Shown here: positions 13,399-18,693 of the stretch, piece by piece
Layout: each line of letters starts with the position of its first letter
Position numbering within the stretch: position 1 is the first letter of the stretch
NCBI GenBank assembly: GCA_037139415.1
Contig: JBAXGN010000073.1
Location: 1-34,175 of the forward strand
From: Verrucomicrobiota bacterium
Lineage (GTDB): Bacteria; Verrucomicrobiota; Verrucomicrobiia; Limisphaerales; Fontisphaeraceae
Direction: 5' to 3'
Length of the DNA: 34,175 nucleotides
Notes under the pieces: generated by a model
Seen by the model: the letters and a program-made list of their open reading frames with translations, nothing else
Databases searched by the model: none
Told to the model about the DNA's origin: nothing
Program-made: the position numbers and the translations under genes

Positions 13399-13427
13399 AA
13401 AAACCCGCCCTTTGGGCGGGTTTTTTT
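13399..13427 (+). terminator. Rho-independent terminator after skp
   Basis: A perfect 7-bp G+C stem, CCCGCCC-TTT-GGGCGGG, is flanked by A residues and followed by seven T's. It lies about 35 bases after the skp stop and ends the sigma-apt-dnaB-bamA-skp run. The A-tract in front would also allow some use from the minus strand. Confidence 0.92.
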
Positions 13428-13545: not shown

Positions 13546-14640
13546 TCACCCTTGGCGGTTCCGCGGCAACCGCACCGTCACCACAGTTTGCGTTCCCGGT
13601 TCTGATTCAATCTGAATCGTTCCGCCATGCGCGTCCACGATCCAACGGGCGATGCTCAACCCCAGGCCGCAACCCTCCACTTGCTGGCTGTGACTGGCGT
13701 CCCCGCGGAAAAACGGCTCAAAAATGCGCGGCAGCACAGCGGCGGGAATGCCCGGCCCGGTATTGGCAATGCTCAACACCGCTGTGGCCTCATCTTGCCG
13801 CAAGTTAACCCACACCTTCCCGTCCGGTTGGTTATATTTCACGGCATTATCGCAGAGGTTCAGAAGCAACTGACGCAAACGATGGCGGTCCCCGGTGACG
13901 TTCAAGGAATCACAGTGGCCCAGCTCCACCTTGATCGCGTGCGGTGTGGCCAGACTCTGAGCATCACTGCACGCCTCCCGCACCAGGTCGTTCAAACTAA
14001 TCGCCGCCTTCGCCAGTGACACCTGACCAGCGTCCGCCTTGGTAAGCAAGGTCAACCCGTCCACAATCTTCGTCAACCGCTGCACTTCATCCAACTGGCT
14101 TTCCAACCGCGTCCGGTCGGCGGCGGAAAGTTCCTTTTGCCCAAGCCAGGTTTCCAGTTCCGCATGGATCACTGTCAGGGGGGTCTTAAGTTCATGTGAG
14201 GCGTGCAGGGTGAATTCGCGAATGCGGTTGAACGAATCATCCAACCGTCCCGTCATGGCGTTGAAAACCTCGGTCAAACGATCCAATTCGTCACCGCTGC
14301 CGGTCGGCGGCAATCGTTCCCGCAAATTATGTTCGGTGAGGCGTTCCGCCGCGAGGGTAAGCGCGGTGACTGGTTCCAGCGCCTTGCGCATCAACCACCA
14401 GCCACCGCCCAAAGCCAGCGCCAGCGCTGGCACACCGCACCAAAGCAAAATTTCCACGAGATCACCCAGAGTATTCTCATCCGATTCGTCGCCTGCATTG
14501 GCTTTTTGCGTAACGGCGGGCCGTAACCCGTCACGCTGCGGTTCCAGCACATATTCGTTATAACTCAACAGCCCCATGGCGAGCAGGGCTACGAGGAGCA
14601 CGACGGAAAACCATAATGTCAAACGGGTGCGAATTTTCAT
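13546..14640 (-). CDS. Sensor histidine kinase of a two-component system
   Basis: 364 aa from ATG 14640, overlapping the response-regulator stop by ATGA, so translation is coupled. Inner-membrane sensor. Two membrane helices (about 9-30 and 60-80) frame a short periplasmic loop of about 30 residues, too small for a large ligand domain. A HAMP segment follows (MRKALEPVTALTLAAERL). The dimerisation/phosphoacceptor motif is HASHELKTPLT with H149. The ATPase domain shows the N box (LLNLCDNAVKYN), G1 (NTGPGIP), F box (IFEPFFRG) and G2 (GCGLGLSIARWI). This architecture resembles CusS/CopS/QseC-type kinases. The signal cannot be read from the sequence. Confidence 0.93.
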   Translation of the reverse strand: MKIRTRLTLWFSVVLLVALLAMGLLSYNEYVLEPQRDGLRPAVTQKANAGDESDENTLGDLVEILLWCGVPALALALGGGWWLMRKALEPVTALTLAAERLTEHNLRERLPPTGSGDELDRLTEVFNAMTGRLDDSFNRIREFTLHASHELKTPLTVIHAELETWLGQKELSAADRTRLESQLDEVQRLTKIVDGLTLLTKADAGQVSLAKAAISLNDLVREACSDAQSLATPHAIKVELGHCDSLNVTGDRHRLRQLLLNLCDNAVKYNQPDGKVWVNLRQDEATAVLSIANTGPGIPAAVLPRIFEPFFRGDASHSQQVEGCGLGLSIARWIVDAHGGTIQIESEPGTQTVVTVRLPRNRQG

Positions 14641-15311
14641 GGGATATCATGGACCCGGTAACCCAGCCCGCGCACGGTATGCAGTAATTTTGGCTCATGC
14701 CCGGCGTCAATTTTTTCCCGCAGCCGCATGATATTCACATCCACCAGGTTGCTGCCGGGATCAAAATCATAGTCCCAGACCTTTTCCAGAATTGCCATCC
14801 GGCTGCAGATTCGCCCGGCGGAGCGCATCAGGAATTCCAACAGACGATACTCCCTGGCGGTCAGTTCGATCTGCGCCATGCCGCGCCGCACCTCCCGTGT
14901 GACGGTGTTCAACGTCAAATCTGCGACCCGTAAAATGGCCGGTTTTGATTCTCCACCACGCCGCCCGAGTGCTCGCACCCGTGCCACCAGTTCGGCAATG
15001 ACAAATGGCTTGGCCAGATAATCATCCGCCCCGGCATTCAAACCTGCCACCCGTTCATTCACTTCGCCGCGCGCGGATAGCATCAGGACCGGTATGCCCA
15101 CGTGCTGCTCCCGCAGTTGTCGCAAAATGCTCAAGCCATCCCGCCCCGGCAGCATGATGTCCAAAACCAAAGCGTCAAAGGGCGTGGTCCGCGCCGCCAG
15201 CAGACCGGTTTCGCCGTCGTGACAGACATCCACGGCGAATTCTTCCGCCTGCAACGCCTTGCGGATGAAGGCAGCGGTTTTTTTATCATCTTCGATGACC
15301 AGCACGCGCAT
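14637..15311 (-). CDS. OmpR/PhoB-family response regulator
   Basis: 224 aa from ATG 15311. The receiver domain (1-115) has the acidic pocket E7-D8-D9, phosphoacceptor D51 in LVLDIMLPGRDG, the switch Ser in MLSARG and the conserved Lys in LAKPF. The C-terminal winged helix (about 130-222) has LTAREYRLLEFLMRSAG and the recognition helix segment SNLVDVNIMRLREKID, ending LHTVRGLGYRV. The receiver resembles the CusR/CopR/QseB group. The likely DNA target is the ATGACA cluster upstream of the operon (16453-16490). Stop and histidine-kinase start overlap by four bases. Confidence 0.94.
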   Translation of the reverse strand: MRVLVIEDDKKTAAFIRKALQAEEFAVDVCHDGETGLLAARTTPFDALVLDIMLPGRDGLSILRQLREQHVGIPVLMLSARGEVNERVAGLNAGADDYLAKPFVIAELVARVRALGRRGGESKPAILRVADLTLNTVTREVRRGMAQIELTAREYRLLEFLMRSAGRICSRMAILEKVWDYDFDPGSNLVDVNIMRLREKIDAGHEPKLLHTVRGLGYRVHDIP

Positions 15312-15369: not shown

Positions 15370-15993
15370 CTACTTGCTGCGGTCAGCATTGACCAGACGT
15401 TTGGCCATTTCGGACAGGTCTTTATAGGCTTCGGCAAAGGCGTCGGCATTCACCTTGTCCATGGCATCTTGGGCCACTGTTTCAATAAGGACCAACCGAC
15501 TCACAATGAGCGGTAAATCGTCAAGGTTGGGATTTTCTGGATCGGAGATGCCGTCCTCGTTCAAGTCCTCGATCAAATCCTTCCGTTCATTAGCCGGCAA
15601 GCTTGCGTCATTGATGGCTTCATACCAATACTGTTCCGCTGCTGCATCGGTCCCAACAAACGCCAGCGCGGTCCGGGCCATTGGGTCTTTGATTGGTTCT
15701 TTGACCGGACGGGTCCCCTGCCCGGCTGAGGTTCCAGGCTTCGGCGCGGACTGGCTTGCCTTCGCAACCTTGGTTGGCATGATTGGGTTGTTAGCTGGAA
15801 GAGCGGAATCGGGCAATGGAACAACGTCTGCTGCCGACGCAGGCGCTGAAACCTGTGCTGCCGCTGGTTTAGGCGCCGCCGGGCGGATGGACGAAAACCC
15901 CTTATCCGCTTCGGCTTTTGGCCAGATCATGAACGTCCCCGCCACACCGCATATCACCGCCGTCACAACCGTCACTCGCACAAATGCATTCAT
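15370..15993 (-). CDS. Hypothetical membrane-anchored/periplasmic protein
   Basis: 207 aa from ATG 15993, with AAGGA eight bases upstream. Not a family I can name. It has one N-terminal hydrophobic helix (residues 5-24, signal peptide or anchor), then a Pro/Ala/Ser/Lys-rich low-complexity stretch (about 30-105) as expected for a spacer across the periplasm. A C-terminal helical domain (105-207) follows, with the segment DLNEDGISDPENPNLDD, which resembles an EF-hand or dockerin-type calcium loop. It lies 58 bases upstream of the response regulator, in the same transcription unit as the PepSY lipoprotein. It may therefore be an accessory sensor or a regulon target. That role is inferred from position only. 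Confidence 0.7.
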   Translation of the reverse strand: MNAFVRVTVVTAVICGVAGTFMIWPKAEADKGFSSIRPAAPKPAAAQVSAPASAADVVPLPDSALPANNPIMPTKVAKASQSAPKPGTSAGQGTRPVKEPIKDPMARTALAFVGTDAAAEQYWYEAINDASLPANERKDLIEDLNEDGISDPENPNLDDLPLIVSRLVLIETVAQDAMDKVNADAFAEAYKDLSEMAKRLVNADRSK

Positions 15994-16045: not shown

Positions 16046-16405
16046 TTATTTTTTCTCCTTTTCGTCCTTTTCCTTCTCTTTGGCTTGCGCTTCCGGTGTT
16101 TCCTTTTCCACGGAAACCACTTCGCCAGTCATGGCATCCACCAATACTTCGGTGATGTCCTTTGTGCCAGGGGTGGCAATATCAAACGACCAGACGAGCT
16201 TTCCCTTTTCCTTTTCGATTTCGCTTTCCTTGATCGTCCCGCCGGGTGCTTTGCCCAAGGCAATCTTTTCGGCATCGGCCCTGGTAACTTTTGCCTGGGC
16301 GGTCAGTTCAGCCTGACTTTGCTTGGCAGTGGCACACGCACTCAAGAAACAGGCGCATACTCCCGCACATAACACGGAAACAATAATAATGTTTTTTATT
16401 TTCAT
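16046..16405 (-). CDS. PepSY-domain lipoprotein
   Basis: 119 aa from ATG 16405 (upstream purine run GGAAAAAAA; the open frame runs to 16432). The signal peptide ends in the lipobox LSAC, predicting lipid attachment at that cysteine and export. Residues about 40-100 match a PepSY domain: TRADAEKIALGKAPGGTI, then KGKLVWSFDIATPG and VLVDAMTGEVVSVEKE. PepSY proteins are small extracytoplasmic modulators and often sit beside two-component systems that sense envelope or metal conditions. The lysine/glutamate tail is low complexity. It is the first gene of the operon and lies directly downstream of the ATGACA operator cluster. Confidence 0.85.
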   Translation of the reverse strand: MKIKNIIIVSVLCAGVCACFLSACATAKQSQAELTAQAKVTRADAEKIALGKAPGGTIKESEIEKEKGKLVWSFDIATPGTKDITEVLVDAMTGEVVSVEKETPEAQAKEKEKDEKEKK

Positions 16406-16452
16406 ATTTTTTTCCGGGTACTGCCCGGTCACGAATAGTCCAGCCGATCACC

Positions 16453-16490
16453 ATGACAGGCTGATGACAGCACCATGACAATCATGTCAT
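16453..16490 (-). promoter_or_regulatory. Operator cluster of ATGACA half-sites (CusR-box-like)
   Basis: Three ATGACA hexamers start at 16453, 16464 and 16475, exactly 11 bp apart, i.e. on one face of the helix. The third forms a perfect inverted repeat with TGTCAT at 16485-16490 over a 4-bp spacer (ATGACA-ATCA-TGTCAT). The E. coli CusR box has the same half-site and the same spacer length. The cluster lies 48-85 bp before the PepSY gene and about 60-100 bp before the divergent ROK gene, so it could serve both. Confidence 0.7.
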
Positions 16491-16550: not shown

Positions 16551-17501
16551 ATGCAACAGCGTTTTCTGGGCATTGAAATTGGCGGGACGAAACTGCAAAT
16601 CGTGGTAGGCGATTCGCAGGCGGCCATCCTGGCGCGGCATCGTTATCAGGTGGCGTTGGCCAAAGGCGGCAACGGCATCCGTGCCCAAATCCGCAAGGCC
16701 CTGCCGGGGTTGTTGAAAGCGCATTCGCCGCTCGCCATCGGCGTGGGATTCGGCGGACCGGTGGATTGGCGGAGCGGGCGGATTTGCTGTTCGCATCAGG
16801 TGGCCGGTTGGGCGGAGTTTGAATTGGGAGCGTGGTTGCAGTCACTGGCAAAGGTGCCGGTGCGGGTGGAGAACGACTCGAACCTGGCGACGCTGGGCGA
16901 GGCCACCCTCGGCAGTGGCAAGAGCTTTAACCCGGTGTTTTACACCAATGCCGGCAGCGGCGTGGGAGGCGGATTGGTCGTCAGCGGGCAGATTTACCAC
17001 GGGGCCACGCCAGGTGAGGCGGAACTCGGGCATGTGCGGTTAAACAAGCGCGGAACGATTGTGGAACAGCGCTGTTCGGGTTGGGCGGTGGACCGGCGCA
17101 TCCGGGAGTTGAAAACGCGCCGGGTGAAGAGTTCGCTTTGTGATTGGATCGGCGAACAACCGGGCGGCGAGGCTCGCCATTTGGCGCGTGCCTTGGACAG
17201 CGGGGATAAGGCGGCCCAAAAGATCCTTCGCGCCACCGCCGATGACTGGGCCTTTGCCCTCTCGCACGTGGTGCATCTCATTCACCCGCAGGTGATCATT
17301 CTGGGCGGCGGGTTGTCCCTCATTGGCGAACCGTTGCGCGCAGCAGTGGCGCTGGCGTTGCCGCGTTATGTGATGGCCGCGTTTCAGCCGCCACCCCCCA
17401 TCAAACTGGCCGGCTTGGGCGAAGATTCCGTACCCGTGGGCGCATTGGTGCTGGCCGCCACCACCGAATTGTGTTGCCAAGGACGCAATAACACGTTGTA
17501 A
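16551..17501 (+). CDS. ROK-family sugar kinase
   Basis: 316 aa from ATG 16551. Predicted cytoplasmic kinase for glucose, N-acetylglucosamine or a similar hexose. The N-terminus gives the phosphate-binding strand (GIEIGGTKLQ). GVGFGGPVDWRSGRI, the catalytic ENDSNLATLGEA (Asp of E-N-D) and NAGSGVGGGLVVSGQIYHGATPGEAELGH follow, then the second ATP segment VIILGGGLS. The ROK zinc motif, normally C-x-C-G-x-x-G-C-x-E, is reduced to EQRCSGWAVDRR, so the structural zinc is probably lost while the metal-facing E-x-GH is kept. No helix-turn-helix is present, so this is a kinase and not an NagC-type repressor. A HUH-like gene begins seven bases downstream. Confidence 0.87.
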   Translation: MQQRFLGIEIGGTKLQIVVGDSQAAILARHRYQVALAKGGNGIRAQIRKALPGLLKAHSPLAIGVGFGGPVDWRSGRICCSHQVAGWAEFELGAWLQSLAKVPVRVENDSNLATLGEATLGSGKSFNPVFYTNAGSGVGGGLVVSGQIYHGATPGEAELGHVRLNKRGTIVEQRCSGWAVDRRIRELKTRRVKSSLCDWIGEQPGGEARHLARALDSGDKAAQKILRATADDWAFALSHVVHLIHPQVIILGGGLSLIGEPLRAAVALALPRYVMAAFQPPPPIKLAGLGEDSVPVGALVLAATTELCCQGRNNTL

Positions 17502-17508
17502 AAGAACT

Positions 17509-18693
17509 GTGCCACGACAACCGCGCATTCAATTCCCAGGCGCCCTGTATCACCTCGTGAACCGGGGCGACCGCGACGAAGCGATCGTCCATACGGACGA
17601 GGATCGCCAACGTTTCCTGGAGACCCTTGGCGAGGCGTGTGCCAAGACCGGCTGGATTGTCCACGCCTTCTGCCTGTTACCGGATGAATTCCAATTGGTG
17701 GTGGAAACTCCACAGCCCAACCTGGTGGATGGGATGAAATGGTTTCTCGGCACTTACACCATCCAATTCAATCGCCGGCACCGGATCAAAGGTCATCTAT
17801 TTAGCGGGCGCTATCGCTCGCTGGTGATTGATGCGGTGGGGGATTACCTGCGCCGGGTATGCGATTACGTTCACCTGGCCCCGGTGCGTGCCGGACTGGT
17901 AATGGAGCGGGAACCGTTATGCACGTTCGCCTGGAGCAGCCTGGCCCAATGCCTGCAATCCCCCGAACAACGCGTGCCCTGGTTCCCGGCGGCCAGACTT
18001 TTCCAGCAGGCTGGTTTGAGCGACGATGCCGCCGGGCGCGCTGCCTTTGAAAAAACCATCGAGCAACGCCGGGAAACCTTCCGCGCGGAGGAATGGAACC
18101 ACATCCGGCGCGGCTGGTGTTTTGGCAGCGCGGAGTTCCGGTATCATTTATTAAAGCTCGCGCAAAATCCCGAGGCCGGTTTCACTGTGCCACGCAAGGA
18201 AGCCGGTCCCGTCAAGGCGGAGGAAATGCTGGCCCAACAACTTGCCGCGCTGGGATGGACAGAACAAGACTTGAAGACACGGGCCAAGGGGGACCCGGTG
18301 AAGATTAGTTTGGCCAGACGGTTGCGCGAGGAAACCACGGTGAGCCTAAAATGGGTGGCCAACCGGTTGCGGCTGGGCACCTGGACGTACCTGGCTAATA
18401 ATCTGTACGCCGAGATAGACCTTAAGCCGAAACCGCCGCCCCGCAAACGCGGACGCAAACCCAAGCCGAAGCCTTCCCCAGAATCCCCGGTTACACCGAA
18501 ACCCAAAAGGGCCTTGGCTTCACCACCGGCTGTCATCCCTGAACCGACCGAGTCTTCCCCGTTCGGAGTTCCGGACCCATCAGGTTCCGACCCCGCCCCC
18601 AAAGTGGAAATACCAACTCCCGCGCCTGCTCCAGAACCCGCACCCGAGGCTACCAATACCGGCCCGGAAGAATTGCCGGTGTACTGTTTATAA
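17509..18693 (+). CDS. REP-associated tyrosine transposase (RAYT/Y1_Tnp) homologue with altered HUH motif
   Basis: 394 aa from GTG 17509, where family homology starts (PRIQFPGALYHLVNRGD). The family are single-strand DNA nucleases with an HUH metal site and one catalytic tyrosine. Here the usual MPNHFHLLVETP block reads LPDEFQLVVETP, so both HUH histidines are replaced (E60, Q62). The GHLFSGRY block and the tyrosine-bearing DYVHLAPVRAGLV block (Y120) remain. A helical C-terminal domain about 230-305 (KGDPVKISLARRLREETT, WVANRLRLG) resembles the helix-turn-helix of related proteins. It is followed by a Pro/Lys tail with an AT-hook-like PRKRGRKPKPKP. No terminal repeats were found beside the gene. 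Strand transfer activity is doubtful; a retained DNA-binding role is possible. Confidence 0.82.
   Translation: MPRQPRIQFPGALYHLVNRGDRDEAIVHTDEDRQRFLETLGEACAKTGWIVHAFCLLPDEFQLVVETPQPNLVDGMKWFLGTYTIQFNRRHRIKGHLFSGRYRSLVIDAVGDYLRRVCDYVHLAPVRAGLVMEREPLCTFAWSSLAQCLQSPEQRVPWFPAARLFQQAGLSDDAAGRAAFEKTIEQRRETFRAEEWNHIRRGWCFGSAEFRYHLLKLAQNPEAGFTVPRKEAGPVKAEEMLAQQLAALGWTEQDLKTRAKGDPVKISLARRLREETTVSLKWVANRLRLGTWTYLANNLYAEIDLKPKPPPRKRGRKPKPKPSPESPVTPKPKRALASPPAVIPEPTESSPFGVPDPSGSDPAPKVEIPTPAPAPEPAPEATNTGPEELPVYCL

Follow-up and report, generated by a model that had tools for sequence, protein, structure and literature searches.

An array of four half-sites at 16453-16490 of the window (the whole 34,175-nucleotide stretch of verrucomicrobial DNA analysed here) lies ahead of an operon that encodes a response regulator (RR) and its histidine kinase (HK), recurs before orthologous operons, and matches the operator of the Escherichia coli cus locus. 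The array is very probably the operator of the CusR/CopR/AgrR-type RR encoded at 14637-15311, through which this protein would drive positive autoregulation of the PepSY-P0004-RR-HK operon.

Array architecture and operon context

The preliminary description of this DNA reported three copies of ATGACA with exact 11-bp periodicity, the last of which forms a perfect inverted repeat with a 4-bp spacer, and the coordinates bear this out. Copies of ATGACA begin at 16453, 16464, and 16475, in steps of 11 bp, and TGTCAT occupies 16485-16490. The exact ATGACA-N4-TGTCAT inverted repeat is found at 16475-16490 and agrees with the pattern ATKACA-N4-TGTMAT. Read on the minus strand in the sense of the operon, from 16490 to 16453, the array is ATGACA-TGAT-TGTCAT-GGTGC-TGTCAT-CAGCC-TGTCAT (columns 1-38): one 6-4-6 inverted repeat followed by two direct half-sites, each with an 11-bp step. 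A distance of 48 bp separates the array from the ATG of the PepSY gene, which lies within the RR/HK operon. The features of the region are the following:

16475..16490, minus strand: predicted core operator, half-sites 1 and 2, ATGACA-TGAT-TGTCAT (same core near 25/27 RR orthologues)
16464..16469, minus strand: half-site 3, direct TGTCAT, 11 bp past half-site 2 (conserved as nTTCAT in relatives)
16453..16458, minus strand: half-site 4, direct TGTCAT, 11 bp past half-site 3 (in 17/21 sites)
16437..16442, minus strand: position of a -10-like element of the putative promoter, 10 bp past half-site 4; the window hexamer, TGGACT, is a weak match
16046..16405, minus strand: PepSY-domain protein (Pfam PF03413) with an N-terminal signal and a lipobox-like LSAC, the latter from reading of the sequence
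15370..15993, minus strand: P0004, uncharacterised; hydrophobic N-terminus, EF-hand-like DLNEDGISD stretch
14637..15311, minus strand: OmpR-family RR (Response_reg + Trans_reg_C), the presumed operator binder
13546..14640, minus strand: sensor HK (HAMP, HisKA, HATPase_c) with a short loop between transmembrane segments
13404..13427, no strand assigned: intrinsic-terminator-like hairpin and T run between the operon and a convergent OmpH-like gene, from reading of the sequence
16551..17501, plus strand: divergent ROK-family kinase (Pfam PF00480), considered outside the regulated unit

The operon runs PepSY, P0004, RR, and HK on the minus strand and ends at the terminator-like hairpin. P0004 has no family match in Pfam or NCBIfam, and its homologues are found in the orthologous operons of loci L067, L104, and L220. 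Directly after the ROK gene, 17509-18693 encodes an IS200-like transposase domain (Y1_Tnp).

Chance expectation

The inverted repeat by itself is weak evidence because 0.91 matches to ATGACA-N4-TGTCAT are expected per window when two mismatches are allowed; the window copy is exact. The triple direct repeat, with three mismatches allowed, is found once in the window, where shuffles predict 0.01 occurrences. For the genome-wide scan, we used patterns with mismatches and applied the weight matrix to loci. The exact 38-bp array occurs once in the 7.9-Mb genome, and allowing up to three mismatches yields the window's exact copy and one weak three-mismatch match (contig C39); the reversed pattern, used as a control over the whole genome, has no match at the same tolerance. 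The exact pair TGTCAT-N5-TGTCAT is found nowhere else in the genome. Its one-mismatch matches fall nearly all within open reading frames, as chance predicts, and a functional role for these other pairs was rejected on that ground.

Conservation before orthologous regulator operons

We compared 27 orthologous RR loci from many families, whose regulators are 67-100% identical and which were picked nearly all by protein similarity only; locus L220 and some additional boxes came from the pattern search itself. The orthologues that protein similarity turned up are 67-78% identical. Each locus was scored with a leave-one-locus-out matrix over up to 4.5 kb upstream of the RR, with thresholds of at least 20 bits for the array and at least 12 bits for the core. 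The inverted core is found in 25/27 loci and the extended array in 20/27, so the half-sites are retained upstream of orthologues, where their loss would have spoken against an operator. For the two remaining loci, L074 and L218, the stretch scanned contains no site, that of L218 being interrupted by a contig end. The consensus in relatives is ATGACR-N4-TGTCAT-N5-nTTCAT-N5-nTTCAT. In the window, the site scores 32.1, the runner-up place 7.1, and the maximum of the reversed sequence 9.2. The autoregulation by the RR proposed in the preliminary description gains support from this comparison, which places the array, with its extra in-phase half-sites, before orthologous RR operons.

Half-site 4 offers a measure of conservation outside the selection pattern. 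Sites were selected on columns 1-27 only, and a match to half-site 4 was taken as at least 4/5 bases in columns 34-38. It is present in 17/21 sites (16/20 without the window). When the flanks were shuffled in 20,000 rounds, the mean was 0.53 sites and no round exceeded 6, and 0/10 control pattern matches away from the operon carry it. Functionless chance repeats would leave one two-mismatch inverted repeat to be expected about once per window, but the whole array lies far beyond the shuffles and many families conserve its unselected columns too; these comparative data refute chance as an explanation, and we give it next to no weight. Further downstream, column 54, 16 bp beyond the end of half-site 4, is T in 20/21 sites, and column 47 is G in 16/21. 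Together these columns are suggestive of an extended -10 element, set 10 bp beyond half-site 4, a spacing that fits class II activation.

Control loci with more distant RRs reach 20 bits in 2/21 cases and the core threshold in 4/21; the site is thus not strictly confined to the RR clade, and weaker versions of the operator may exist beyond it. Gene content of the orthologous loci, with varying completeness and order, comprises PepSY, a YVTN-propeller protein, RR, HK, TolC, an adaptor, and an RND pump. Where the pump is transcribed apart from the RR (L072, L211, L214, and L215), boxes or cores precede the pump too. Locus L211 has overlapping boxes in both orientations before the RR (L211:5515-5552) as well as one more box in the HK-TolC interval (L211:7822-7848), which suggests separate control of the pump.

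The same loci bear on whether the operator also, or mainly, governs the divergent ROK kinase gene, as the preliminary description had allowed. The site ends 60 bp ahead of the ROK start codon, the inverted core is symmetric, and operators of the cus type can be divergent, as at E. coli cusR-cusC, but the array is kept while ROK is non-adjacent at every other locus examined, and its orientation points toward the PepSY/RR operon. Because of this separation and orientation, control of ROK is left without comparative support, and we regard it as quite unlikely.

Relation to known operators

The likeness to the E. coli CusR box, recognised in the preliminary description, holds for both half-sites and spacing. 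The E. coli cusR-cusC intergenic region contains ATGACA-ATTT-TGTCAT-TTTTC-TGTCAC, that is, the ATGACA-N4-TGTCAT core and, 11 bp on toward cusC, a third half-site, TGTCAC; unlike in the window, a fourth half-site is weak or absent. Applied to this region, the verrucomicrobial matrix ranks the operator first in the locus at 29.4 bits. Efflux pump genes adjoin the E. coli operator, whereas the window operon has the PepSY and P0004 genes inside and the pump outside.

AgrR of Cupriavidus metallidurans provides a second counterpart, with a 6-4-6 inverted repeat (ATKACANNNNTGTMAT) and in-phase direct half-sites upstream and/or downstream; both kinds of repeat contribute to binding and activation, and mutating either impairs activation (PMC7380067). 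AgrR likewise autoregulates, and its boxes mostly take a class II position (PMC7380067). It differs in its half-site, ATTACA rather than ATGACA, and only some AgrR operators carry extra half-sites, in contrast to the two downstream ones conserved in the verrucomicrobial loci. Pseudomonas CopR boxes are inverted repeats of the TGACA-N4-TGTCA type (PMC12428095, PMC11195947), and the footprints of P. putida CopR reach over several TGACA motifs (PMC12428095); the genes controlled are other ones, and the available portions of both reports do not describe a regular 11-bp array. Since the E. coli cus, AgrR, and P. putida CopR operators share these features, the arrangement is of a known kind. The extra in-phase half-sites are not new either, being documented for AgrR (PMC7380067) and visible at E. 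coli cusC. On PepSY/CusRS-like operons or a verrucomicrobial CusR regulon, we found no directly relevant title among the papers listed.

The direct repeats also resemble a Pho box, in which case PhoB would bind the 11-bp tandem TGTCAT repeats and the operon would be phosphate-regulated. The E. coli pstS box, TGTCAT-AAAAC-TGTCAT, agrees in half-site and period with the direct repeats of the window. However, it is without an inverted core and belongs to phosphate genes, while what relatives conserve is the inverted core with nTTCAT after it instead of tandem TGTCAT. The operator matrix gives the E. coli Pho box 12.0, against the 29.4 of the cus operator, two pst operons checked in the genome of the window are without such repeats, and in relatives the genes alongside encode efflux pumps. 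On these grounds, the Pho-box reading was rejected as very improbable.

Regulator, kinase, and efflux pump

The best NCBIfam family of the RR is cztR_silR_copR (TIGR01387), at 241.4 bits, under the cut-off of 279.2, and the protein shares 47% identity with E. coli CusR. Its two closest named relatives (72% and 61% identity) have records labelled Verrucomicrobia, the closer one subdivision 3. The kinase scores 229 bits against cztS_silS_copS, under the cut-off of 292. It is without a CusS-like periplasmic domain: its loop is only ~40 residues, and the CusS domain is much longer. The loop is acidic in the window and in several orthologues. We counted the scores of both proteins below the heavy-metal cut-offs against the operator reading.

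An RND pump is linked in most orthologous loci, where TolC, adaptor, and RND are encoded together with the regulator genes. Of the relatives' RND proteins, one tested exceeds the CusA/CzcA cut-off; a second RND type, at other loci, does not. The genome under study has its own TolC-adaptor-RND trio on contig C34 (L101:3041-8605), apart from the regulator and homologous to the pumps at the relatives' loci; its RND scores 692 against the CusA/CzcA cut-off of 701. A matrix scan found no operator upstream of this trio, which, with the missing CusS domain, also counts against the operator reading. The earlier suggestion of a response to metal or envelope stress is thus sustained in part: the relatives' RND pumps, one above the CusA/CzcA cut-off, favour it, but the kinase without a CusS-like sensor domain does not.

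Another CusR-like regulator of the genome could be the main binder, the adjacent RR having a minor role, as in the cross-regulation of Pseudomonas cusR-pcoA2. One palindrome is common to Pseudomonas CusR, CopR, and CzcR (PMC11195947), and the genome has at least ~50 related RR matches, two of them 53-57% identical. Yet the site travels with the RR clade over many families, and the loci of the closest paralogues in the same genome (L077 and L078) are without such a site. Residue 211 of P0001, in the wing before TxRG, is H or Q in the box-bearing RRs and in E. coli CusR, and E in most of the no-box paralogues compared; it is possibly a specificity residue. We consider cross-regulation improbable and the adjacent RR the likely binder.

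Model and implications

We infer that the RR binds the array, that it does so cooperatively, and that it activates the operon instead of repressing it; the kind of signal is inferred too. Upon a periplasmic signal, the kinase would phosphorylate the RR, a dimer of which would occupy the 6-4-6 inverted repeat. Further RR monomers would then fill the two direct half-sites, laying protein along one face of the DNA up to the -10 element, and this row would act as a class II activator that recruits RNA polymerase. A metal cation is the presumed signal, and the PepSY lipoprotein may serve as an accessory or feedback component in the periplasm. In a more specific and rather doubtful version, the symmetric pair nucleates a tandem RR row reaching the -10 element, and the kinase, without a real periplasmic sensor domain, senses the state of metals or of the envelope by way of the PepSY lipoprotein expressed with it.

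Most likely, judging from sequence comparison, the site adds a well-supported new case to a known type of switch: a metal-resistance-type regulator acting on its own operon. The comparison indicates that Verrucomicrobia have retained, one half-site after another, the copper/silver-type operator described from Proteobacteria, and that selection acts there on a longer array, one that extends to the -10 element. The operator matrix is ready for seeking such regulons outside Proteobacteria, and the array lends itself naturally to testing in what way OmpR-family regulators join symmetric with tandem binding within one operator.
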